Positions 10,698 to 62,339 of a stretch of DNA of 62,875 nucleotides are shown here, piece by piece. Numbering within the stretch: the stretch's first letter is position 1; each line of letters begins with the position of its first letter. The notes below the pieces were generated by a model. The model was given only the letters and a program-made list of their open reading frames with translations, was not told the DNA's origin and did no database searches. The translations under genes were made by a program, and so were the position numbers. Source of the stretch: a virus; the IMG/VR virus record IMGVR_UViG_3300015245_000040, positions 1 to 62,875 of that record. One strand, 5' to 3'.

Positions 10698-11246
10698 CAA
10701 TTTTATATACTGTGCTTTACTGAACCCTGCTCCAACCCCTAACTGCATCTTCAAGTGATCCAACCCTGCTCTCCAACAGTATAACTCTGTTTTCAAGTGA
10801 GGCCACCCTTGATTCTATACCAGTCAGACGTAAGTTCAGAATTCCTATGTTATGGTTGACTTCAGCAAAGCTCCGTCTTACTTCCACATGAAAGTTATTA
10901 GTCGCAGCAGTAAGGGATTTCATCATTTCCACAACTTCATCGTCAGCCATTTTATACTCCTATATTTAAAACTTATTGTAATTGATGGCTTACGATCAGC
11001 ACAGTTTAATCTTTGTTATCATACCTGCTCTTTATCAGGTATTTCTACATATCACTATGTAGTTCGGACTATATCTTCCTTATTTCTAAGGCTGGACGCT
11101 CGTGTCAGGATTATTCTTTCGTCACCTGTTAGTCTCTGAACCTTCCACAACCCTAGGAACTTGTATGTTCTTACATTTGTGGCTTGGCTGCTGATTGTCT
11201 CTGAGAGAGTTTCCAGCAATTCATCCAGTTTTACAACGGCCTATCG
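10698..11246 (-). ncRNA. Group I intron 3 in the capsid gene, with a small ORF
   Basis: 549 n long as drawn. P1 is exact: exon AACGGT with intron GCCGTT, ending in T.G. A full core follows: P (GATGAATTGCTGGAAAC), Q (GACAATCAGCAGCCAAG), R (GGTTCAGAGACTA) and S (AAGATATAGTCCGAAC). Intron-like sequence should end near 11035, but no capsid-like exon follows; a coiled-coil ORF (10717-10950) lies there instead, then an AAAATTG end. The element may be a fusion of two introns around a lost exon. Confidence 0.7.
10717..10950 (-). CDS. Small coiled-coil protein inside intron 3
   Basis: 77 residues, own AGGAG site 7 nt before the ATG. It begins MADDEVVEMMKSLTAATNN and continues as heptads (RLTGIESRVASLENRV, LLESRVGSLEDAV). 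It is not a nuclease or maturase. Its end resembles the 8523-8753 protein. It sits where intron 3 should finish, so it may be cargo captured with an intron tail. Confidence 0.55.
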   Translation of the reverse strand: MADDEVVEMMKSLTAATNNFHVEVRRSFAEVNHNIGILNLRLTGIESRVASLENRVILLESRVGSLEDAVRGWSRVQ

Positions 11247-11312
11247 ACCGTTCATGAACGTGTCTTCCGCATTCATTACTCTTGATTCTAACAGATCAAT
11301 AATGGCTTCTTC
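11247..11312 (-). CDS. Major capsid protein, exon 3 of 6
   Basis: 66 nt, 22 codons EEAIIDLLESRVMNAEDTFMNG. It joins in frame to exon 2 (..LEELQNSG) and matches the family block QNSG.E..IDLLE.R..NAE.T. It ends in phase 0, followed at once by the exact P1 pairing of intron 3. Splicing straight to exon 4 would put exon 4 out of frame. Confidence 0.8.
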
Positions 11313-38292: not shown

Positions 38293-38502
38293 TCAATCCC
38301 AATCACCATAAGAATGAAATCTATAAGGTCTGTAAGTATGATAGAAGTAATGATATGGGGGGTAATACTTATATACCTGATAACCATCACGGAAACCATC
38401 ATGCCAAGATCTATGATAACCCTGATGATAATCATAGCATTGTGCCTGAGCAGCCATTGGTAGAATTACTACCAACACAATCAAACCTATTAAATATTTC
38501 AT
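38293..38502 (-). CDS. Secreted Tyr/His-rich small protein
   Basis: 69 residues from MKYLIGLIVLVVILPMAAQAQ, a signal peptide, after a strong AAAGGAG site. Mature part YDYHQGYHRSWHDGFRDGY.. is almost all Tyr, His, Asp and Arg. The upstream in-frame extension overlaps the cold-shock gene and is not real. Export is clear; role unknown. Confidence 0.6.
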   Translation of the reverse strand: MKYLIGLIVLVVILPMAAQAQCYDYHQGYHRSWHDGFRDGYQVYKYYPPYHYFYHTYRPYRFHSYGDWD

Positions 38503-38506
38503 TGGA

Positions 38507-38764
38507 TCACTCCTTTGATATATTGGTAGCAAAATGCCCTTTAAGACCTTGATTGACCACACATAATACCTTGTCACCCTCCTGAATAGTCTCAAGCCCC
38601 GACTTTTGAAGTTGCTGTTTATGCATGAAGACATCGTTAGGATAACCTTCACACTGTATAAACCCAAATCCCTTGGTATCATTAAACCATTTGCAAACCC
38701 CCCGTACTTTAACTACTTTATTGAGCTTGGAAGTATCATTAGGTGCGCTATTAGTATCACTCAT
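38507..38764 (-). CDS. Cold-shock domain protein
   Basis: 85 residues. A CspA-type fold: GVCKWFNDTKGFGFIQ (RNP1) near 22-37 and DVFMHKQQL (RNP2) near 45, ending GHFATNIS. The first 15 residues are a short extension. Binds single-stranded RNA/DNA and can melt RNA hairpins, which fits a phage with many leader stem-loops. Its start overlaps the NusG-like gene by 4 nt, so the two are made together. Confidence 0.85.
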   Translation of the reverse strand: MSDTNSAPNDTSKLNKVVKVRGVCKWFNDTKGFGFIQCEGYPNDVFMHKQQLQKSGLETIQEGDKVLCVVNQGLKGHFATNISKE

Positions 38765-39270
38765 TTAATCTTCTCATCTTCTATCGAAGTTACCACTGGA
38801 GCTAGATCTTTTTCAGATAGCTCAATATGAACTTGTTGTCCCAGCATTTCTATAAGAACACGCACCCTATCATTAGGTCGCATGCCATCGTATAGTCCAG
38901 TATAACCCTCTAATGGGCCTGTAGCAACTCTCACCTGTTGCCCTTTTTGGAATTTAGTTGGCTCTGGTAACGTAATCAACCCTGCTTTATCTTCACGCAT
39001 TTTTAAATCTTCTATGATCTTATCTGATACAATCACTGGTTTGCTGTCTTGTCCAATCATAATCCTACTCACACCAAATGTCGAATTTATTCTGTGCCAT
39101 TGTTGTTCTATCTGCACAAAAAAATATCTGGGAAATAATACCTTAATTTTAATTTCCTTTCCAACCCTGCTCATGTATTTAGGTAAGTAAGGAACAAAAC
39201 CTTGCCTTTCCAAGTTAATAATTGCTCTGTTCTCATTTCCAGGCTTAGCTATAACAACACTCCAGTACAT
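38761..39270 (-). CDS. NusG/RfaH-like transcription elongation factor
   Basis: 169 residues. NGN domain: MYWSVVIAKPGNENRAIINLERQGFVPYLP.. FPRYFFVQIE, then a KOW domain at about 105-145 (FQKGQQVRVATGPLEGYTGLYD..). This is a NusG paralogue of the specialised type and may act as an antiterminator for late genes. It is the first gene of the long leftward operon, where such a factor would act. Start chosen by AGGTGG upstream. Confidence 0.88.
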   Translation of the reverse strand: MYWSVVIAKPGNENRAIINLERQGFVPYLPKYMSRVGKEIKIKVLFPRYFFVQIEQQWHRINSTFGVSRIMIGQDSKPVIVSDKIIEDLKMREDKAGLITLPEPTKFQKGQQVRVATGPLEGYTGLYDGMRPNDRVRVLIEMLGQQVHIELSEKDLAPVVTSIEDEKIK

Positions 39271-42745: not shown

Positions 42746-42933
42746 GACATCTGAGAGTGATGGGTAGACAAGTTGAAGATCCTGAAAACAGGGGTGAGAC
42801 AGCACATTGGATTGCAGCCCCAATGAAGGATGTTGGAACTATTCAACAATTTCATGAAGTTGTTGAGCGTGCAGATGCGGTTATGGAAAAACTACAGAAT
42901 ACAATTAAATATTTGCAGGAAAAGGGTAAATGA
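42742..42933 (+). CDS. Small unknown protein
   Basis: 63 residues, MRHLRVMGRQVEDPENRGET.., mostly helical in the second half. Overlaps both neighbours by 4 nt, so translation is coupled. Unknown. Confidence 0.45.
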   Translation: MRHLRVMGRQVEDPENRGETAHWIAAPMKDVGTIQQFHEVVERADAVMEKLQNTIKYLQEKGK

Positions 42934-43811
42934 CTAAATGCCATCTCTGTGGAAATGAATTTAAGCAGCCAGTTCTTCAACAAGGGGGCACTCCAGGTAA
43001 GATTTACTGCAGCAAGAAATGCCGCTCTAGAATGGGGGAATTAAGGAAAAAAGAAAGAATAAAAAAGAGTTGGGCTGATGGGACGAGACGGGATGTGTGG
43101 TTAACAGAACATTATGGAATAACTGAAAAAGAATGGAATGATATCTTTGACAAGCAAGGAAGAGCTTGTGCCATCTGCAAGACTACTAAACCTAAAAGTA
43201 AAGTAGGATGGCACACCGATCATAATCACAAAACCAACAAAGTCAGGGGAATTCTTTGCGAAAATTGCAATCGTGGGCTTGGAATGTATGCTGAGGATAT
43301 ATCATTTTTAAGACATGCGATGGTATACCTTGGAGTACACCAAGGAATACTTAATGCGGAATCAATAGAAAAAGCAGGAATAATCTATCCATTCTTTCCC
43401 AGGTCCAATCAAAACGGAATGACCTTTGGTGTGAGTATGGCTGGATATGATATTAGAATAGATCAAGAATTAGTTCTTATGCCAAAGGATTTTTCATTGG
43501 CATCATCAATAGAATATTTTGATATGCCAAATGATCTGGTTGGCATGGTCTGTGACAAGTCAACACATGCCCGCAAAGGGTTACAAGCCTTTAATACGAT
43601 TATAGAACCAGGGTGGAGGGGTTACCTAACACTTGAATTAGTAAATCATAGTCATAGACCTATTTGGCTAAAGCATGGGGATCCTATTGTTCAAGTTGTC
43701 TTTCAGACTTTAACACAACCAACTGATAGACCGTATAATGGAAAGTATCAGGATCAGAAACGTGGCCCACAAGAAGCTATTCTTGAACCTGTAACAAAGC
43801 GTTGGGTGTAG
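42930..43811 (+). CDS. Endonuclease VII-type HNH fused to dCTP deaminase
   Basis: 293 residues. N-terminal zinc motif (CHLCGNEF..YCSKKC), then a T4 endo VII-type nuclease at 70-130 (ACAICKTT, TDHNHKTNKVRGILCENCNRGLG, FLRHAMVYL). From residue 138 on it is a dCTP deaminase/dUTPase: ILNAESIEKAGII, GYDIRID, DKSTHARKGLQAFNTIIEPG, GYLTLELVNHS, GDPIVQVVF, YQDQKRGPQ. The deaminase makes dUMP/dUTP for dTTP supply. The nuclease probably entered at the deaminase start codon and stayed in frame; no internal start is obvious. Confidence 0.85.
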   Translation: MTKCHLCGNEFKQPVLQQGGTPGKIYCSKKCRSRMGELRKKERIKKSWADGTRRDVWLTEHYGITEKEWNDIFDKQGRACAICKTTKPKSKVGWHTDHNHKTNKVRGILCENCNRGLGMYAEDISFLRHAMVYLGVHQGILNAESIEKAGIIYPFFPRSNQNGMTFGVSMAGYDIRIDQELVLMPKDFSLASSIEYFDMPNDLVGMVCDKSTHARKGLQAFNTIIEPGWRGYLTLELVNHSHRPIWLKHGDPIVQVVFQTLTQPTDRPYNGKYQDQKRGPQEAILEPVTKRWV

Positions 43812-44690: not shown

Positions 44691-45220
44691 CTGGGCAAGT
44701 GGGTTGTTTTGTTGATACCAAACTCATCCCATGTATACCATTTCCCCTGATAGCCCCCTTACTTGGTATACTATACCAAGCATAGTATAATCATATACTA
44801 TACATATAATATCAAGCATGTGCCTAGCATACATGGCATAGCCATGTCAACCCCATTGACATACATAGCCCTGCGTTGCAGCCACTACAGGCATCATCAT
44901 ACCTAGCACGTGCTGCTATAGCCACCCCCTCATGTCAACCCTTATTCACTGGCATGCCAGTGAATAATTAATTGGTCATGGGTTGACGCGTGTTGTGCAC
45001 GTGCTATGTAAGGGGTGTTGAGGCAGCCATATAGGTTGCTGGGTTCACCTGATACGGCGGTTGCCCTCACCCGGGGGCAACACGGGGTTGACAGCCCCTA
45101 GCAACGCCGCAGCGCCCGTGCCAACCCGTAAGGGGGTGCATAGCAACGTTATTGTGGTTGACGCCTTCAACCGCATGCGCTGTCAAGTCAGGCAGCGCAG
45201 GTGTGTGAAGGCTAAAAACC
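44691..45220. other. 530-bp non-coding control region, possible origin
   Basis: No ORF. AT-rich palindromes at 44765-44810 (GGTATACTATACC, then CATAGTATAATCATATACTATAC partly inverted), changing to a GC-rich stretch from 45000. It lies between the AT-rich operon and the skewed segment and includes the segment's left edge (44746). An origin or control site is a guess. Confidence 0.4.
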
Positions 45221-46375
45221 ATGACCAAAGTTACTGTTGACCATGATGACGTTGACGGCGCGGCCCTGACCCGGGCAGCACTTACCACACATGCCCCTGA
45301 TACGGGCTTGCAGGTGGCCGCTGATGCGGTTGAGGCTGACGGGGCGGGTGATACCGCCCCTGATGATCATACCGCGCCTCAGGGTGACGCGCCGGCCGGT
45401 GGCGTGGCTGACATCATTGCCGCCATTCAGGCGGGTGATGATGCGGCCCTGACGGTTGCGCTTGATGCCACCACAAAGGTGGCTGATGACGCGGCCAACA
45501 ACCCGGCAGTACTGACGGCGGCCAAACCTGCCAAGCAGGTGGGTGAAACCAAAAAGCAGTACGCGGCGCGCATCAAGGCGTGGCAGGCTGAAACGGTCAA
45601 GGCGGCAACGCCTGTGATTGATGCGGTGGTTGACCCTGACATGGCCGCGCACAAGGCGGCCATTGAAGCGGCCAACGTGGCGGTTGAGGCTGACAAGCCT
45701 TTGCCCCGTACCATGCCTATGCTGGTCAGCACACCGGTCATCATGGCCCAACCTGCCACCCCTGTTTGGCCCGGTGGGTTTGACTTGAGCGGTTGGGCTG
45801 ACATGGCCGCTGATACGGCGTGGCAGGGCGGGCTTGCCCCACCCTGCCCTGATGTTGATGCGGTGCATGCGGCGTGTGCCCTGAGTGCGGGTAACCCTGA
45901 CAATGGGGTGCCACGGCTCAGTGAACCCCATACCAAAAAGGTGATGTCAATTGCCTGCTACTTGACACAGGCAATGCCGCAGCACCTTGACCAGTTGAGC
46001 ACTTTCAACGTGTTTGACTGGGGTGTGGCAATGCACATGTGCCGGTCATTGGGGCGGGTATGTGGTACCACGGCTGACAACAAGCAAAATGCCAGCCTTG
46101 ACGCTGAACGGGCCATGCTACTGTCAATTGACCGTGGCCTATCAGTTCAACACCGCTACGGCACCAGCACCAAACGGGGCGTGGTGTACCGCAACCGGGT
46201 CACCACTACCAAGGGGTACCTACTGGTGACACGGTACTTTGACCGCATCAACCGGCCGGTACCGTTGTGGCTGAGTGGCTATCATGCAGCGGTGGCAAGC
46301 TGGCAACTTGAGCACCAGCCCGCCAAGCCTGTTGACGGCATGGCCGCCCTTATGGGCGCGCCCAATACCAAGTAA
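45221..46375 (+). CDS. Large Ala/Asp-rich protein, unknown
   Basis: 384 residues. The first 200 are low complexity, rich in Ala, Asp, Thr and Val (AADAVEADGAGDTAPDDHTA). The second half is a globular domain: SIACYLTQAMPQHLDQLSTF NVFDWGVAMHMC.. and YGTSTKRGVVYRNRVTTT.. RYFDRINRPVPLWLSGYH. No family recognised. It is the largest gene of the TGA/TCA-only segment, and its codons follow that rule: Ser only TCA/AGC/AGT, and GAN codons only after a codon ending in T. High GC compared with the left arm. Confidence 0.7.
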   Translation: MTKVTVDHDDVDGAALTRAALTTHAPDTGLQVAADAVEADGAGDTAPDDHTAPQGDAPAGGVADIIAAIQAGDDAALTVALDATTKVADDAANNPAVLTAAKPAKQVGETKKQYAARIKAWQAETVKAATPVIDAVVDPDMAAHKAAIEAANVAVEADKPLPRTMPMLVSTPVIMAQPATPVWPGGFDLSGWADMAADTAWQGGLAPPCPDVDAVHAACALSAGNPDNGVPRLSEPHTKKVMSIACYLTQAMPQHLDQLSTFNVFDWGVAMHMCRSLGRVCGTTADNKQNASLDAERAMLLSIDRGLSVQHRYGTSTKRGVVYRNRVTTTKGYLLVTRYFDRINRPVPLWLSGYHAAVASWQLEHQPAKPVDGMAALMGAPNTK

Positions 46376-46380
46376 AACTC

Positions 46381-46410
46381 AGGGGCTAGCCTTGTGTGAG
46401 GCTAGCCCCT
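46381..46410 (+). terminator. Hairpin terminator
   Basis: AGGGGCTAGCC and GGCTAGCCCCT, 11 bp, loop TTGTGTGA, followed by ATTTGCCTTTT. The T-rich part also starts the leader stem of the next gene. Confidence 0.75.
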
Positions 46411-46411
46411 A

Positions 46412-46462
46412 TTTGCCTTTTAGCATGCTTTGTCAGGTTGGCAGGGCAGGTGAAAAGGCAAA
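46412..46462 (+). promoter_or_regulatory. Leader stem-loop enclosing a ribosome site
   Basis: TTTGCCTTTT (46412-46421) pairs perfectly with AAAAGGCAAA (46453-46462), 6 nt before the ATG at 46468. The purine-rich AAAAGG would be hidden when the stem forms. Same idea as the three leaders downstream but with different bases. Confidence 0.6.
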
Positions 46463-46467
46463 AAACC

Positions 46468-46653
46468 ATGTGGGCGTTTACTATCAGGCCAAATGTCACA
46501 ACACCCTCACATTTCAAGTGGCGTTGTGACATCACCTGTAACGGTACCGTTACAAATATACATACCTATGACAGTGATATGCTGCGGTTGGCGGTGCAGG
46601 CTGTCATATTATGTGAGGGCTACAACAATCATGACAAGGCAAAAGGGGGCTGA
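46468..46653 (+). CDS. Small unknown protein
   Basis: 61 residues from MWAFTIRPNVTTPSHF; start set by the GTGAAAAGGCAAAAAACC leader. A small alpha/beta segment with RLAVQAVILCEGYNN. Its stop lies in the 46643-46664 hairpin. Unknown. Confidence 0.55.
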   Translation: MWAFTIRPNVTTPSHFKWRCDITCNGTVTNIHTYDSDMLRLAVQAVILCEGYNNHDKAKGG

Positions 46654-46664
46654 AAAGCCCCCTT
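46643..46664 (+). terminator. Hairpin over the stop codon
   Basis: AAGGGGGCT-GAAA-AGCCCCCTT, perfect 9-bp stem; the TGA stop lies in the loop region. Confidence 0.65.
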
Positions 46665-46752
46665 ACTTACACTAGGCTAAGTTGCATTCATAAAAAAGCC
46701 TAGGTTCAAGTGATTTTTGCGCCGGGTTTGCACCATAATAAGTTGTATACAA

Positions 46753-46806
46753 CCCTTTGCGGCTATGTGCTAACCTACTCAATCACGGCACATAGCTTGA
46801 AAGGGC
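46753..46806 (+). promoter_or_regulatory. Structured leader element 1
   Basis: Outer stem CCCTTT/AAAGGG, a 3x3 internal loop (GCG/TTG), inner stem GCTATGTGC/GCACATAGC (9 of 9 pairs). The ribosome site GAAAGGG is the 3' outer strand. ATG follows at 46809. Confidence 0.75.
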
Positions 46807-46808
46807 AA

Positions 46809-46847
46809 ATGGCGGCCAAGTATGAAATGCGTAGCACGCGGCCGTAG
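46809..46847 (+). CDS. 12-residue mini-ORF under leader 1
   Basis: ATG with the full TGAAAGGGCAA leader reads MAAKYEMRSTRP and stops. It may be a leader peptide, or the stub of a deleted gene. No other start is nearby. Confidence 0.4.
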   Translation: MAAKYEMRSTRP

Positions 46848-46964
46848 GTAAAGCATTACCTATTGTAGCATAATATGCTACGGCGCGGGGTACGTTATAC
46901 GCCCTCAGTTAGTACCACGTACCCCAAACCGTAGCATAAAATGCTACGGTTCATGATAATGTAC

Positions 46965-47057
46965 CCCTTTGCGGCCATACGCTTCACTTGACTGTCAACA
47001 CTTGACATCACTTGACTGTCAACACTTGACATGTGAGGGCGTATGGCTTGAAAGGGC
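46965..47057 (+). promoter_or_regulatory. Structured leader element 2
   Basis: Outer stem CCCTTT/AAAGGG, same internal loop, inner stem GCCATACGC/GCGTATGGC (9 of 9 pairs). The loop carries two 24-nt tandem repeats. The ATG of the next gene is at 47063. Confidence 0.75.
46984..47031. repeat. Two exact 24-nt tandem repeats
   Basis: TCACTTGACTGTCAACACTT.. is repeated twice without a gap (46984-47007, 47008-47031), each with TTGAC/GTCAA inverted pairs. Lies in the loop of leader 2. Confidence 0.85.
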
Positions 47058-47062
47058 AAATT

Positions 47063-47266
47063 ATGAATAACCATGACTATGAGGCATGGCTGAACCTGTT
47101 GACCACAGCCATGCAACAGGCTGTCACTGATACCCCGGTGTTTGACCGGGGTCATATGGGTGAGCGGCTGATGCACACTCACTACCCTGACCCTGACGTG
47201 CGGCGGGTATTCAGGCGTTCATACCGCCGCGCCGCCGCTCAGGCAGCTTTTATCAGCCGGGTGTGA
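47063..47266 (+). CDS. Small Arg-rich protein
   Basis: 67 residues from MNNHDYEAWLNLLTTAMQQ, start given by the TGAAAGGGCAA leader. Helical; ends RRVFRRSYRRAAAQAAFISRV, which could bind nucleic acid. Unknown. Confidence 0.6.
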   Translation: MNNHDYEAWLNLLTTAMQQAVTDTPVFDRGHMGERLMHTHYPDPDVRRVFRRSYRRAAAQAAFISRV

Positions 47267-47323
47267 AACCTGTTGCGGTATAAAAGCGTATACTAACGTA
47301 GTTTATACAACCTGCTACCTTAA

Positions 47324-47339
47324 GGGGCTAATTAGCCCC
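47324..47339 (+). terminator. Short palindromic hairpin
   Basis: GGGGCTAATTAGCCCC between the small gene and leader 3. No T-run, so its termination value is unclear. Confidence 0.5.
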
Positions 47340-47343
47340 CTAG

Positions 47344-47395
47344 CCCTTTGCGGCCGTAGGTTAACTTAAATTTGACCTACGGCTTGAAAGGGCAA
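47344..47395 (+). promoter_or_regulatory. Structured leader element 3
   Basis: Outer stem CCCTTT/AAAGGG, same internal loop, inner stem GCCGTAGGT/ACCTACGGC (9 of 9 pairs). ATG at 47399. Third homologous copy with compensated stem changes. Confidence 0.75.
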
Positions 47396-47398
47396 ATC

Positions 47399-47728
47399 AT
47401 GGCTGATCAAACTGAGTTGTTACATGAGTTGATCACTGAGTTGGGCGCGCGTCACGTGCTCACCATTGACGCCAACAACATGATTTTGGCGTACCGTGAT
47501 CAGGGTGAGTACAAGGGCAAGGCGTATGACAAATACCGGCTTGCCCCGTTTTACTGGTACGCCCGCGCTGCCGCGTGGCAGCAGGCCAGCGGCTCACTGG
47601 GCGTACCGTACGGCCGCAAGGCTGATTTGCTGGCAGGGTTGGTACGGGTTGCCGCTGATGACGCGGCCACTACCAAACTGTTGACGCTGCGGCGTGACAG
47701 TGACGCCAGCGCGGGCGCTGGCGTGTGA
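47399..47728 (+). CDS. Small alpha-helical protein
   Basis: 109 residues from MADQTELLHELITELGARH, start by the leader. ILAYRDQGEYKGKAYDKYRL then an Ala-rich helix region. No family recognised. Followed by a strong hairpin. Confidence 0.6.
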   Translation: MADQTELLHELITELGARHVLTIDANNMILAYRDQGEYKGKAYDKYRLAPFYWYARAAAWQQASGSLGVPYGRKADLLAGLVRVAADDAATTKLLTLRRDSDASAGAGV

Positions 47729-47733
47729 TAACA

Positions 47734-47761
47734 GGGGGGTGCTACCACCCTAGCACCCCCC
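47734..47761 (+). terminator. Hairpin
   Basis: GGGGGGTGCTA and TAGCACCCCCC, 11 bp, right after the stop. No T-run. Confidence 0.6.
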
Positions 47762-47807
47762 ACCTACAAACGCCTGTAACATACCTTAAAACCCCGTGGC
47801 GGGGCAT

Positions 47808-47851
47808 GCCTTGCGCTGTAGTGCTCAACTCAGGGCATTACTGTTGAGGGC
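47808..47851 (+). promoter_or_regulatory. Structured leader element 4 (variant)
   Basis: GCCTT/GAGGGC outer pairing and CTGTAGTG/CATTACTG inner pairing (7 of 8, one wobble). ATG at 47858. A weaker member of the leader set, start box GAGGGCAAGCAA. Confidence 0.5.
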
Positions 47852-47857
47852 AAGCAA

Positions 47858-48229
47858 ATGGGTAAGTTACCCTGCATCATGATTTACCGTAATAGCAGTA
47901 ACAGCAGGTTCAACCTGACCCTACGGCTGCAATGCGGTCACGTGGCTATGTGGGTATACCCGTGGTCAATTGGCTTGACTGGCTTCAACTGGCCAGCCAC
48001 GGCTTACCGCACTGATAGTGAAAAAAGTTGTGGCTGTGAGTACTGTGATGACTTGCCGCCCGGTACGTGGGTTTTCAATGACAATACGCTCACCATACGC
48101 TGGCGTGGTTGGCGTCATGTTGACCGCACCCGGGGCGTACTCAATGATGACGGCACAGTCACATGGCGGCGTTATTGGCGTTGGCCCATTGAAGCATTCA
48201 GCCACAGTCAACATGACGCCAACTGGTAA
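47858..48229 (+). CDS. Trp/Cys-containing protein, unknown
   Basis: 123 residues, MGKLPCIMIYRNSSN.., with LQCGHVAMWVYP and SCGCEYC (Cys/His set, probably zinc) and a Trp/Arg-rich second half (TIRWRGWRHVDRTRG). Unknown. Last gene of the TGA/TCA-only segment. Confidence 0.6.
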   Translation: MGKLPCIMIYRNSSNSRFNLTLRLQCGHVAMWVYPWSIGLTGFNWPATAYRTDSEKSCGCEYCDDLPPGTWVFNDNTLTIRWRGWRHVDRTRGVLNDDGTVTWRRYWRWPIEAFSHSQHDANW

Positions 48230-48237
48230 GGGGTTTT

Positions 48238-48262
48238 GATAGGTGGGCAACGCCCACCTATC
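48238..48262 (+). terminator. Hairpin terminator
   Basis: GATAGGTGGGC-AAC-GCCCACCTATC, perfect 11-bp stem, after the last gene of the segment. Confidence 0.65.
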
Positions 48263-48416
48263 ACCATTTCATTTTCAATGTCAAATCAATGTCAAATCGT
48301 AGGGTTTTAGGCTGGTTCTTATGATCCAGCTGAGGGAGGCAGAGGGAGGTCAATCTTTGATCTGAGCGAGGCCGAGGCAAAGAAGATTTAATGCATCTTG
48401 AGGGGAGTTGGGATCA
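48263..48416. other. Non-coding gap, end of the skewed segment
   Basis: Two copies of CAATGTCAAAT (48274, 48285 area) and a loose inverted repeat AATCTTTG..CAAAG.AGATT near 48352-48390, possibly the terminator of the RHH gene. Normal trinucleotide use returns from 48297. Confidence 0.4.
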
Positions 48417-48605
48417 TTAGATACTTTTTATCTTCTTCCCTGAGACGATATTGATCTGAGGGGAGGTGGGAGGATTATCTTCCCTGATTCTATCAAGAAC
48501 AATTAATCGAATAAACTCAGATACCGAGCGGCGAGCACGAGCTGCTGCCTCAAATATCCTGTCTTTCTCGTCCTTTTTCACTGAAACACCAATCTGTAAT
48601 GGCAT
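48417..48605 (-). CDS. Ribbon-helix-helix (CopG-like) DNA-binding protein
   Basis: 62 residues: LQIGVSVKKDEKDRIFEAAARARRSVSEFIRLIVLDRIRE fits an RHH fold (strand, helix, turn, helix). Strong AGGAGGG site. Divergent from the DUF3102 gene, so it may repress that promoter. Could serve copy control or lysogeny. Confidence 0.75.
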   Translation of the reverse strand: MPLQIGVSVKKDEKDRIFEAAARARRSVSEFIRLIVLDRIREDNPPTSPQINIVSGKKIKSI

Positions 48606-54598: not shown

Positions 54599-54619
54599 GC
54601 CCTTTCATGCTTGAAGGGC
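54599..54619 (-). promoter_or_regulatory. Leader hairpin over the start box
   Basis: On the minus strand GCCCTTCA pairs with TGAAAGGGC (one bulge), enclosing AGCA. The box is the ribosome site of the acidic zinc-ribbon gene. Confidence 0.5.
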
Positions 54620-54651
54620 GGCAAACAATTGCCGCCCTCATCAACGGGTAT

Positions 54652-54897
54652 TCAGTCAAAGCAACACTTGGCAGCATCATTGGCCGCCTCACCCCGGCCG
54701 GCAAAAGGGCCGCTAGGCATGACAACGGTTTCAGGGCTGAGCGTGCCCGTATCGTCATCAACTGCCCGGTGCCAATACCAGCCAGTTTTCAGGTTTTGAA
54801 ACCGCTCATCAGATACTGCCCACGGGCAGCGGTCATGAGCAAAAACCAGGATTTCAGTGCCCTGACCGTCATCACTCAAAAGCCAGATATTAACCAT
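54652..54897 (-). CDS. Small unknown protein
   Basis: 81 residues, MVNIWLLSDDGQGTEILVFA.., ending PSGPFAGRGEAANDAAKCCF. The PSGPFA..EAA.DAA end recurs in 58117-58416 (HGPFADSKAAYRAACEAL), so the two are related. Start box GTGAAAGGGCAAGCATATG. Its sequence is almost free of AGA/CGA/GGA/TCT/TCC/TCG. Confidence 0.6.
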   Translation of the reverse strand: MVNIWLLSDDGQGTEILVFAHDRCPWAVSDERFQNLKTGWYWHRAVDDDTGTLSPETVVMPSGPFAGRGEAANDAAKCCFD

Positions 54898-54956
54898 ATG
54901 CTTGCCCTTTCACGTGAAAAAATACCTTGCTAGTATTTCATAGCCCTATGGAAACA

Positions 54957-58068: not shown

Positions 58069-58077
58069 AGGATAAAT

Positions 58078-58116: not shown

Positions 58117-58416
58117 TTACATGTTGTGAGGGCGGCCTAAAGCCTCACAAGCCGCCCTGTAGGCGGCCTTGCTATCAGCAAATGGGCCATGAACTACCTT
58201 AAAAGTAGCCCCCCCATACTCATCAACACACCAATTTGGCAGGTAACAATCAGCCCAAAACCAGCCGGCCCCAGATCTTGGGTAGGGGTGCGCGCTATGC
58301 GTGCCACTATGATAATACACCTCAAATGATAACTGTTGAGGAATCACCCCAAAAACGCCTTGAAAATTATCAGCCAATGGTTGAGGTACTGCCAACAGTT
58401 GCTGCAGATTAATCAT
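58117..58416 (-). CDS. Small unknown protein of the display family
   Basis: 99 residues, MINLQQLLAVPQPLADNFQG.., WFWADCYLPNWCVDEYGGATFKVV then HGPFADSKAAYRAACEAL. Same end as 54652-54897. Start box GTGAAAGGGCAAAACC-ATG. Confidence 0.6.
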   Translation of the reverse strand: MINLQQLLAVPQPLADNFQGVFGVIPQQLSFEVYYHSGTHSAHPYPRSGAGWFWADCYLPNWCVDEYGGATFKVVHGPFADSKAAYRAACEALGRPHNM

Positions 58417-60176: not shown

Positions 60177-60422
60177 ATGTCAATCAGTGATGAAATCTGT
60201 GACAGCCATGGCCTTTATGTGTTTTGCATTTGGCCTGCCAACCTGACTGATCCCAACCCTGTGGTAGGGCATGACCACACGCCCCTGACTGCCGGCTACT
60301 ACTACGCGGTAACTGAGGGTGAGGTAACTGGCCCCCTTAGTTTTTTGACCAACCCCGTTGGGCCGTATCTTCTGCGCAAGCAAGCATTGGCAGCTATGCT
60401 GGCTGACATCATTGACGTGTAA
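60177..60422 (+). CDS. Small unknown protein
   Basis: 81 residues from MSISDEICDSHGLYVFCIWP; start box GAGGGCAAGCAC-ATG. YYYAVTEGEVTGPLSFLTNPVGPYLLRKQALAAML again beta-then-helix. Few AGA/TCT-type trinucleotides. Confidence 0.6.
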   Translation: MSISDEICDSHGLYVFCIWPANLTDPNPVVGHDHTPLTAGYYYAVTEGEVTGPLSFLTNPVGPYLLRKQALAAMLADIIDV

Positions 60423-60464
60423 ATAAAGTAAATGGGGGCTGCTCCGGCAGCCCCTACAATTAAA

Positions 60465-60872
60465 TTACTTTAGATAATATGATAAGTGGCACGGGACATC
60501 CCAAGGGCCACAATCCAACAACAGATAATTCTTAAGAAGTTGATAATTAGACTGATTGTAATTAAAGTCTGGCTGCTGGGCTATTTCCTTAAATGTATCT
60601 TTCTTATTTACTTCCTTCAAAACTTCTTTAACAACATCTTTCTTATGCTTGACCGCCTGAGCTACCTGAGTGGAATCATGTCTATGCACATGATAACAAG
60701 TTCTGATTTTGGTTCCCCGATGATAAATATGATCTTCACGGTAAACCTCACGTGCCTGTTCTTCACTTCCATAACACATGGCATAGCCATGTGCTTTGGT
60801 TTCCTTGGCTTGCACCTGTTGACTGGAGGCCAGAACACCTATCAGGGCCAACGCTGTTATCAAGGTTTTCAT
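60465..60872 (-). CDS. Secreted protein
   Basis: 135 residues with signal peptide MKTLITALALIGVLASSQQV (cleavage near QA). A Lys-rich helix part (KHKKDVVKEVLKEVNKKD) and a C-terminal Cys pair (LDCGPWDVPCHL). Overlaps the zinc-finger gene by 4 nt. Confidence 0.6.
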   Translation of the reverse strand: MKTLITALALIGVLASSQQVQAKETKAHGYAMCYGSEEQAREVYREDHIYHRGTKIRTCYHVHRHDSTQVAQAVKHKKDVVKEVLKEVNKKDTFKEIAQQPDFNYNQSNYQLLKNYLLLDCGPWDVPCHLSYYLK

Positions 60873-61057
60873 TCATGCTTCCCCTTCTTAGGCACAGTGG
60901 ATGTGCCCGTTGATGTTCCTGAGCCGGTACCAGATCTATGGGTATCAACTGGCTTGTGCTTCATGATAATATGCTTAGTCATCCGAGGCACTTCATCTGC
61001 ACCAGTAGGAACTGTGAAATCACAGTGAGGACACTTAATAAGATTAGGCTTAGCCAT
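60869..61057 (-). CDS. C2H2-like zinc-finger protein
   Basis: 62 residues from MAKPNLIKCPHCDFTVPTGA; CPHC and HIIMKH give the C2H2 set. Gly/Ser/Thr linker and basic tail. Start preceded by AAAGGGACCC. Confidence 0.6.
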   Translation of the reverse strand: MAKPNLIKCPHCDFTVPTGADEVPRMTKHIIMKHKPVDTHRSGTGSGTSTGTSTVPKKGKHE

Positions 61058-61186
61058 TTTGAGGGTCCCTTTCATATGCCCGTGCCGTGCCCTGTGGTGC
61101 GGCCCATATAATAAGGTGGCAACTGTCACCTGATACACAAACCGCACCAGCAGGCTTGACAGGCATGATTTCTGCCATTGTATTAG

Positions 61187-61576
61187 TTACAGGGGCTGCT
61201 TACCCAAATACAAATCAATCTGATCAGCCACCATCTCTGGTGTGACATCCTCAAATTGACGCTTTACCTGATCCATCCAATCACCGCCCCCATAGAAAAT
61301 ATCAGCAGCCTTCTCATAAGGCATCTTCATAAGTTCTGATATATCTTCAACAGCTAGATGAGTGTGTGCAAGCCTAATGTGAACCCCCCACAACTGAGAT
61401 GCCAATCCCATGGCACAGGTTTCACATTTGTTGTAATTCCAACTGAATCCCTTGGGCCACAGGCCCTTGTGCCTGAGCAAATAGGATAATGCCTCCAATG
61501 AAGGCTTATCCAGGCTCAGCAGGGCTTCAACTTCCATACGCTTGATGGTCTCAAGTAACTTAGGGTCCTGATACAT
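61187..61576 (-). CDS. Unknown protein with Cys motif
   Basis: 129 residues. Helical; CETCAMGLASQLWGVHIRLAHTHLA in the middle is similar to helical nucleotide-pool or DUF6197-like folds. Start box TGAAAGGGTAAAAGC-ATG. Confidence 0.55.
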   Translation of the reverse strand: MYQDPKLLETIKRMEVEALLSLDKPSLEALSYLLRHKGLWPKGFSWNYNKCETCAMGLASQLWGVHIRLAHTHLAVEDISELMKMPYEKAADIFYGGGDWMDQVKRQFEDVTPEMVADQIDLYLGKQPL

Positions 61577-61646
61577 GCTTTTACCCTTTCAGAATGAAAC
61601 TACCTGCCATTATTACATGACAAGGTAGAAATTGCATGCTGTATCT

Positions 61647-61988
61647 TCAGCGGTGCCTGATACTACCATTTACAGTCTTAACATGACCCCTAATGATTCC
61701 GTCACAATCAACAGCACCATTTACTGTCTGCACAGAACCGTGAATATCACCTTTCACCTCAATGTTCCCATTTGTGAGTGAGACATCACCAGTATTTCCA
61801 GTGATAGTAATCTGCTTACAAATATCAACCTCAAGATAAGTAACTGATCCCTCAATAGTAATAGTAATCTCCTTTGCATCGGGGGTTACATCCTTACCAT
61901 CAATAATAATCTTACCATTGCTAATAATAATACTCCCATTGCTGTTACCAGCAATGGTGACCCCATTGATTGAGACCTTATTAGCCAT
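61647..61988 (-). CDS. Beta-helix-like repeat protein
   Basis: 113 residues of short beta repeats (ITIEGSVTYLEVDICKQITI, DVSLTNGNIEVKGDIHGSVQ, VNGAVDCDGIIRGHVKTVNG). Bactofilin/DUF4097-like right-handed beta-helix is likely; could polymerise. Start box AAAAGGGCAGTGAA-ATG. Confidence 0.6.
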   Translation of the reverse strand: MANKVSINGVTIAGNSNGSIIISNGKIIIDGKDVTPDAKEITITIEGSVTYLEVDICKQITITGNTGDVSLTNGNIEVKGDIHGSVQTVNGAVDCDGIIRGHVKTVNGSIRHR

Positions 61989-62002
61989 TTCACTGCCCTT
62001 TT

Positions 62003-62155
62003 CTAAAAGTTAGCCCACCAATGCCTCAGGAACTTAATGGGGTGCTTAATCCCACACGCCCAGCAAGGTATCATCTGAGTATGCCCATGATGACAGCGCC
62101 AAAAAGTCCCACTATCAATCATGAACTGATTGGATTCATAGAGGTTATTTCTCAT
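62003..62155 (-). CDS. Small zinc-binding protein
   Basis: 50 residues, MRNNLYESNQFMIDSGTFWR.. CHHGH, then PCWACGIKH. AAAAAGGGTAAAC before the ATG. Overlaps the gene upstream by 11 nt. Confidence 0.5.
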   Translation of the reverse strand: MRNNLYESNQFMIDSGTFWRCHHGHTQMIPCWACGIKHPIKFLRHWWANF

Positions 62156-62339
62156 TGTTTACCCTTTTTGTATTCAGATAAATTAACTTACGTAACAGAT
62201 CAGTTTCAGCATTAATTTCCTTTATTCGTTGCTCCAATACAGAAACCCTACGTTCAGCCTCAAGAACTTCAGGGGAAGGCTTATATAGTCCCAACCATTC
62301 ACACGCCTTGAAGAATTTTATCCACATGTGATATGACAT
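62145..62339 (-). CDS. Small coiled-coil protein
   Basis: 64 residues: MSYHMWIKFFKACEWLGLYK, then heptads (EAERRVSVLEQRIKEINAET). Start box AAATGGCAAACCT-ATG is a diverged leader. Unknown. Confidence 0.55.
   Translation of the reverse strand: MSYHMWIKFFKACEWLGLYKPSPEVLEAERRVSVLEQRIKEINAETDLLRKLIYLNTKRVNNEK

Follow-up and report, generated by a model that had tools for sequence, protein, structure and literature searches.

A viral gene block free of the three-base word VGA/TCB and its counterparts in related phages

Site avoidance is known for words four to six bases long. Under selection, phage DNA sheds the words that a DNA-cutting system recognizes (Rusinov et al. 2018, PMC6286503), and the pre-early region of T5-type phages lacks EcoRI sites, blunting the action of EcoRI (PMC13250531). 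Three-base degenerate targets are attributed to the chlorovirus nickases Nt.CviPII (CCD) and Nt.CviQII/QXI (R/AG), together with M.CviQII (PMC7019647). The target SAY is that of the plasmid-borne M.EcoGIX and M.BceJIII, beta-class methyltransferases which counter restriction on entry (PMC7736820). A described precedent of avoidance with a three-base target was not found in the open-access papers searched. Here we analyse a viral record of 62,875 bp (IMG/VR record IMGVR_UViG_3300015245_000040, hereafter the window), in which a tract of 3,553 bp at 44746-48298, a feature of both strands alike, is free of AGA, CGA, GGA, TCT, TCC and TCG, i.e. of GA without a preceding T and of its reverse complement (VGA/TCB).

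A trinucleotide count returned 0 VGA/TCB sites in the tract, where each GA is TGA and each TC is TCA, and the nearest flanking sites are TCC at 44743 and TCG at 48297. The absence of all six trinucleotides and both breaks of the rule had been claimed in a preliminary description of this DNA, and the count bears them out. If sites were as frequent as in the remainder of the window, 240 would be expected in the tract. The second-longest clean run in the window measures 203 bp (at 58070), and the longest in 1 Mb of second-order Markov sequence modelled on the window measures 138 bp. When synonymous codons were shuffled in the four tract genes, with proteins and codon counts preserved, 101.5 ± 6.7 sites resulted, with a minimum of 78 over 2,000 trials; this check had been proposed beforehand, and no shuffle came near zero. 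In an unbiased ranking of avoidance over 826 three-letter sets of the International Union of Pure and Applied Chemistry (IUPAC) code, TCB (equal to VGA) is first in the window, and it is the top avoided three-base set in this phage clade only. The 384-codon gene, credited earlier with about 70 GA or TC sites, all obeying the rule, has 73, all compliant. The five genes counted at that time amount to four open reading frames (ORFs), the fifth being a 12-codon ORF (46808-46846, plus strand) past the first leader hairpin, on its 3' side.

Repetition of the analysis in related phages had also been recommended. Relatives were retrieved via the terminase and via the tract gene of one of them, G003, and five more viral contigs in this clade, which derive from at least four metagenome samples, carry a tract of 0.56-3.5 kb. 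It spans 3.52 kb with one exception in G001, 0.85 kb with none in G002, 0.75 kb with one in G003, 1.31 kb with two in G020, and about 0.56 kb in G021, with one exception in the core and more just upstream. Three genes come in the same order in G001 and in the window, which also have one leader hairpin in common. Read from its sequence, the G003 tract is a single gene running from a promoter-like start to a terminator-like hairpin, and the tract gene is a clear outlier among genes of at least 60 amino acids (aa) in G003, G020 and G021. The G020 tract has genes on both strands, all of which obey the rule. The tract is internal in every long contig; G003 closes on itself with a 145-bp end overlap and hence has no readable genome ends. 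The G+C content (GC) of the tract exceeds that of its own genome in all six phages (0.55 against 0.41 for the rest of the window, 0.60 against 0.50 in G021, almost equal in G020).

The tract is confirmed as a real observation, neither chance nor an assembly quirk. A foreign insert or chimeric contig is ruled out by the five other contigs and by the G001 DNA, which matches parts of the tract at 69-90% similarity. Low complexity accounts only for short runs in G004-G006, which are coding sequence rich in Gly, Pro and Ala. Apart from these runs, an origin by chance, low complexity or artefact is contradicted by the independent contigs, the codon shuffles, the Markov runs and the IUPAC scan, and its probability is negligible.

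The proteins encoded in the tracts reveal how the word is avoided. Asp and Glu make up 10% of the residues in eleven tract genes, and 190 of their 191 GAN codons are preceded by a codon ending in T, an ending found before 16% of other codons. Dipeptides that force a VGA, with Asp or Glu preceded by Met, Trp, Lys, Gln or Glu, do not occur at all against 33 expected, and in background genes the same dipeptides occur at observed/expected counts of 92/110, 100/112 and 38/44. Because Asp and Glu are kept with a preceding T and the forcing dipeptides are missing, mutational decay is rejected; these counts show that the tract is kept clean by selection on double-stranded DNA. The unusual mutational process suggested in the preliminary description is not supported, on the same grounds. 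A local process of deaminase or reverse-transcriptase type could draw on the G+C-richer tracts of all six phages, but the proteins are still homologous among phages and elsewhere the word is avoided via synonymous choice, which makes such a process highly improbable. Hypermutation by a deaminase or a diversity-generating retroelement (DGR) was also rejected, as the word is not lost directionally regardless of the protein. The earlier proposal of pressure on double-stranded DNA is supported, as depletion on the sense strand of non-tract genes affects VGA as well as TCB but spares the mirror motifs, and as the tract genes of G020 comply on either strand. An RNA-level target is unlikely, given that the sense strand avoids both words and that genes in either orientation do so. 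To clear a three-base word from kilobases of sequence, to the point where dipeptides such as Lys-Glu or Glu-Asp are banned, requires selection at almost every position.

As a tentative reading, to which we give somewhat less than an even chance, selection would keep the tract, as a transcription unit, clear of the word recognized by a DNA-acting agent which reads 5'-VGA-3'/5'-TCB-3' in double-stranded DNA, likely a phage-encoded modifying or cutting enzyme, with self-sparing as the outcome. The agent would be a DNA-modifying enzyme of short specificity, encoded by and inherited with the phage clade and possibly accompanied by a partner nuclease or nickase. The tract would have to stay untouched, probably since its first gene has to work during the activity of the agent, and the remaining genome would tolerate hits at a small cost per site, with weak avoidance as the result. 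A VGA-dense block beyond the tract would form a sharp border.

Such a block extends over 48297-48598 of the window, again without strand, with 41 sites per 300 bp against a window mean of 19.1 and with GGGAGG/GAGCGAGG repeats. It partly overlaps a 62-aa ORF on the minus strand (48417-48605) which resembles a ribbon-helix-helix protein. The 300 bp following the tract rank by VGA/TCB density in the top 0.05% of its own genome for the window, 0.08% for G003, 0.24% for G020 and 0.9% for G021. The dense block of the window contains GGGAGG four times, and those of G003, G020 and G021 contain GATGAG four, nine and seven times, respectively; in G002, an array of ten GACGAG units is located past one further small ORF. 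The repeat units thus differ among the phages, and their common ground is little beyond VGA.

Arrays which vary in this way (GACGAG, GATGAG, GGGAGG) and have VGA density alone in common would also suit a protein of phage or host origin which binds DNA by sequence and acts as a silencer or roadblock, with the product of the first tract gene as a candidate. Any site in the tract would then block the expression of the tract itself, and the dense block would be a stop or nucleation array; the minimal tract, a lone gene between a promoter-like start and a terminator-like end, fits this arrangement, and the predicted order helix-helix-helix-strand-strand of a 164-aa tract protein, with its basic tail, might suit a winged helix. 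However, a three-base word is very permissive for binding, the structures predicted for the tract proteins are poor (predicted local distance difference test, pLDDT, 42 and 35), and neither a confident family match nor a PDB match was obtained. We regard a binding protein as unlikely, though the likeliest rival to a modifying enzyme.

Outside the tract, the same word is avoided weakly. Compared with codon shuffles, the non-tract genes of G000, G001, G003, G020 and G021 have observed/expected ratios of 0.75-0.92 for VGA and 0.70-0.87 for TCB (z from -5 to -22), against 0.96-1.06 for the mirror motifs. Avoidance is not seen in G008 and G009, which are more distantly related (1.01-1.03). Likewise, the TGA ratio is 1.16-1.42 at all loci with a terminase identity of at least 60%, and 0.92-1.20 at 52% or less. 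Along the genomes, depletion is evenly spread, without a gradient from the tract. The preliminary description had noticed depletion in several right-arm genes, which is real but not confined there, being genome-wide and clade-wide. The minus-strand gene at 58117-58416 has indeed the four exceptions then reported, next to 16 compliant sites, and that at 54652-54897, also on the minus strand, lies in a partly depleted stretch (54607-54933) with four exceptions and 25 compliant sites. The notion of an ongoing process holds only in part: the pressure outside the tract is weak and even, with a few right-arm genes somewhat cleaner. Blocks of small genes without VGA bias and of other composition are found at 55.0-57.7 kb in G003, 41-46.8 kb in G020 and 42.6-49.9 kb in G021; they were probably acquired recently, and the G020 block has a resolvase-like ORF.

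This even avoidance bears on a T5-like first-entry region, in which the tract would be the first part to enter the cell and would have to evade a host nuclease until its products shield the remaining genome. The EcoRI-free pre-early region of T5-type phages offers a model, the tract lacks sites that occur in the remaining genome, and a repeat array follows it where T5 has its injection-stop region (named in a title cited in PMC13250531). The evenness, though, leaves no gradient as a trace of entry order; one word is avoided at terminase identities down to about 60% and at differing GC, whereas host restriction specificities vary; and no genome end is shown beside the tract, which in the window sits inside a run of rightward genes. 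A first-entry region is improbable, slightly more so than a binding protein. Since the same word is avoided in phages with GC of 0.41-0.53 and not in more distant relatives, the data suggest that the agent is inherited with the phage rather than reflecting varying host restriction enzymes.

With regard to a modifying enzyme as the agent, the clade's three largest records (G003, G020 and G021), the only ones with replication genes, carry a gene for an orphan DNA methyltransferase of the N6_N4 type (PF01555-type; Pfam E-value of 1e-10 in G003). The only candidate agent found, it resembles ParB-fused phage methyltransferases and lies at 38303-39265 in G020; the more distant or unrelated records that were searched yielded a single weak partial match, in G014. 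Five further methyltransferase-bearing contigs have the same TGA bias, so that all eight are biased; as these contigs probably belong to the same clade, this is not independent support. We infer that the agent is phage-encoded, that this methyltransferase is the agent and that self-sparing is the purpose. In G003, an intein is carried by the methyltransferase and another by a DNA polymerase A with a uracil-DNA glycosylase domain (loci 60279-62318 and 64403-68419).

Several points weigh against this assignment. The target specificity of the methyltransferase is unassigned, its presence is confounded with clade membership, and it does not occur in the window, G001 or G002, in which the replication genes are missing. 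A cognate nuclease was not identified, and no nickase was noticed among the scanned proteins, no search having been aimed at nickases. Taken alone, a uniform cost per site in the remaining genome does not explain why avoidance is absolute in one unit. Furthermore, the dense block is partly coding in the window and G003, so part of its enrichment may reflect protein sequence. As for other modifications, a 7-deazaguanine system (DpdA, GA motif) was rejected: no gene of the DpdA/TGT family (PF01702) was found in G000, G001, G002, G003, G020 and G021, records that may be incomplete, and the controls matched in 14 of 14 cases.

The window tract sits within a run of rightward genes, and its own genes are all on the plus strand. 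The first (45221-46375) encodes an Ala-rich protein of 384 aa, 35-36% identical to the 376-aa product of the first gene in the G001 tract and without a family match. It is followed by genes for proteins of 67 aa (47063-47266; no family match), 109 aa (47399-47728) and 123 aa (47858-48229), the last two with homologues in the G001 tract at 55% and 44% identity. No relatives of the searched tract proteins were found in phage, plasmid and genome collections. Three plus-strand leader hairpins were located, of which the first (46750-46811; CCCTTTGCGGC...GCTTGAAAGGGCAA) pairs with the Shine-Dalgarno AAAGGG and covaries with the other two and with G001; the second (46962-47065) precedes the 67-aa gene and the third (47337-47401) the 109-aa gene. 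Pairing of CCCTTT with AAAGGG recurs in these three and in L104 (16824-16898), and a comparison of the four hairpins found both sides changed in 5 of 17 pairs and no broken pair. To judge from this pattern, the hairpins look like a translational control element. The core of their ribosome-binding site (RBS) is also present in right-arm genes, and a search of viral contigs with the RBS pattern returned 15 stretches, none with a tract. In the stricter tracts, the Shine-Dalgarno reads AAGGG, not GGAGG. A 26-bp palindrome, equal to its own reverse complement, lies near the tract start (44942-44967). Elsewhere in the window, ORF 42930-43811 fuses an endonuclease VII domain with a dCTP deaminase/dUTPase domain, and a group I intron lies on the minus strand at 11045-11280 (82 bits).

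Compared with restriction-site avoidance (PMC6286503), the likeness is that a word is under-represented in a phage genome. The sites considered there are mostly palindromic Type II sites assessed by whole-genome counts, whereas here the word is three-base and asymmetric, and its avoidance is complete in one block and weak elsewhere. On the side of the host, two scans of genome contigs gave no relative. The T5-type pre-early region (PMC13250531) is also one genome block without sites found elsewhere, but T5 misses six-base EcoRI sites, few of which are expected by chance, while here 240 expected sites are missing and protein sequence is affected. The chlorovirus nicking-modification enzymes (PMC7019647) are virus-encoded and their targets have the same form as TCB, a likeness in the form of the word only; no homologue is demonstrated here, and the part of that source considered reports no avoidance tract for them. 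M.EcoGIX and M.BceJIII (PMC7736820) resemble the proposed agent in a degenerate three-base target and residence on a mobile element, but they act on single strands.

The tract points to an agent reading only three bases, and it provides both a natural, fully recoded gene block and a clear sequence prediction for the target of that agent. A phage-inherited system with a three-base target, one fully recoded transcription unit exempt from it and a target-dense border may constitute a self-sparing genome compartment of an undescribed kind, although we hold this as possible rather than probable; there is a fair chance that the agent itself belongs to a new kind. While the avoidance of sites is in itself known, the papers searched did not describe a three-base asymmetric target, the complete emptying of one block with its effect on proteins, weak and even avoidance elsewhere, or a dense border.

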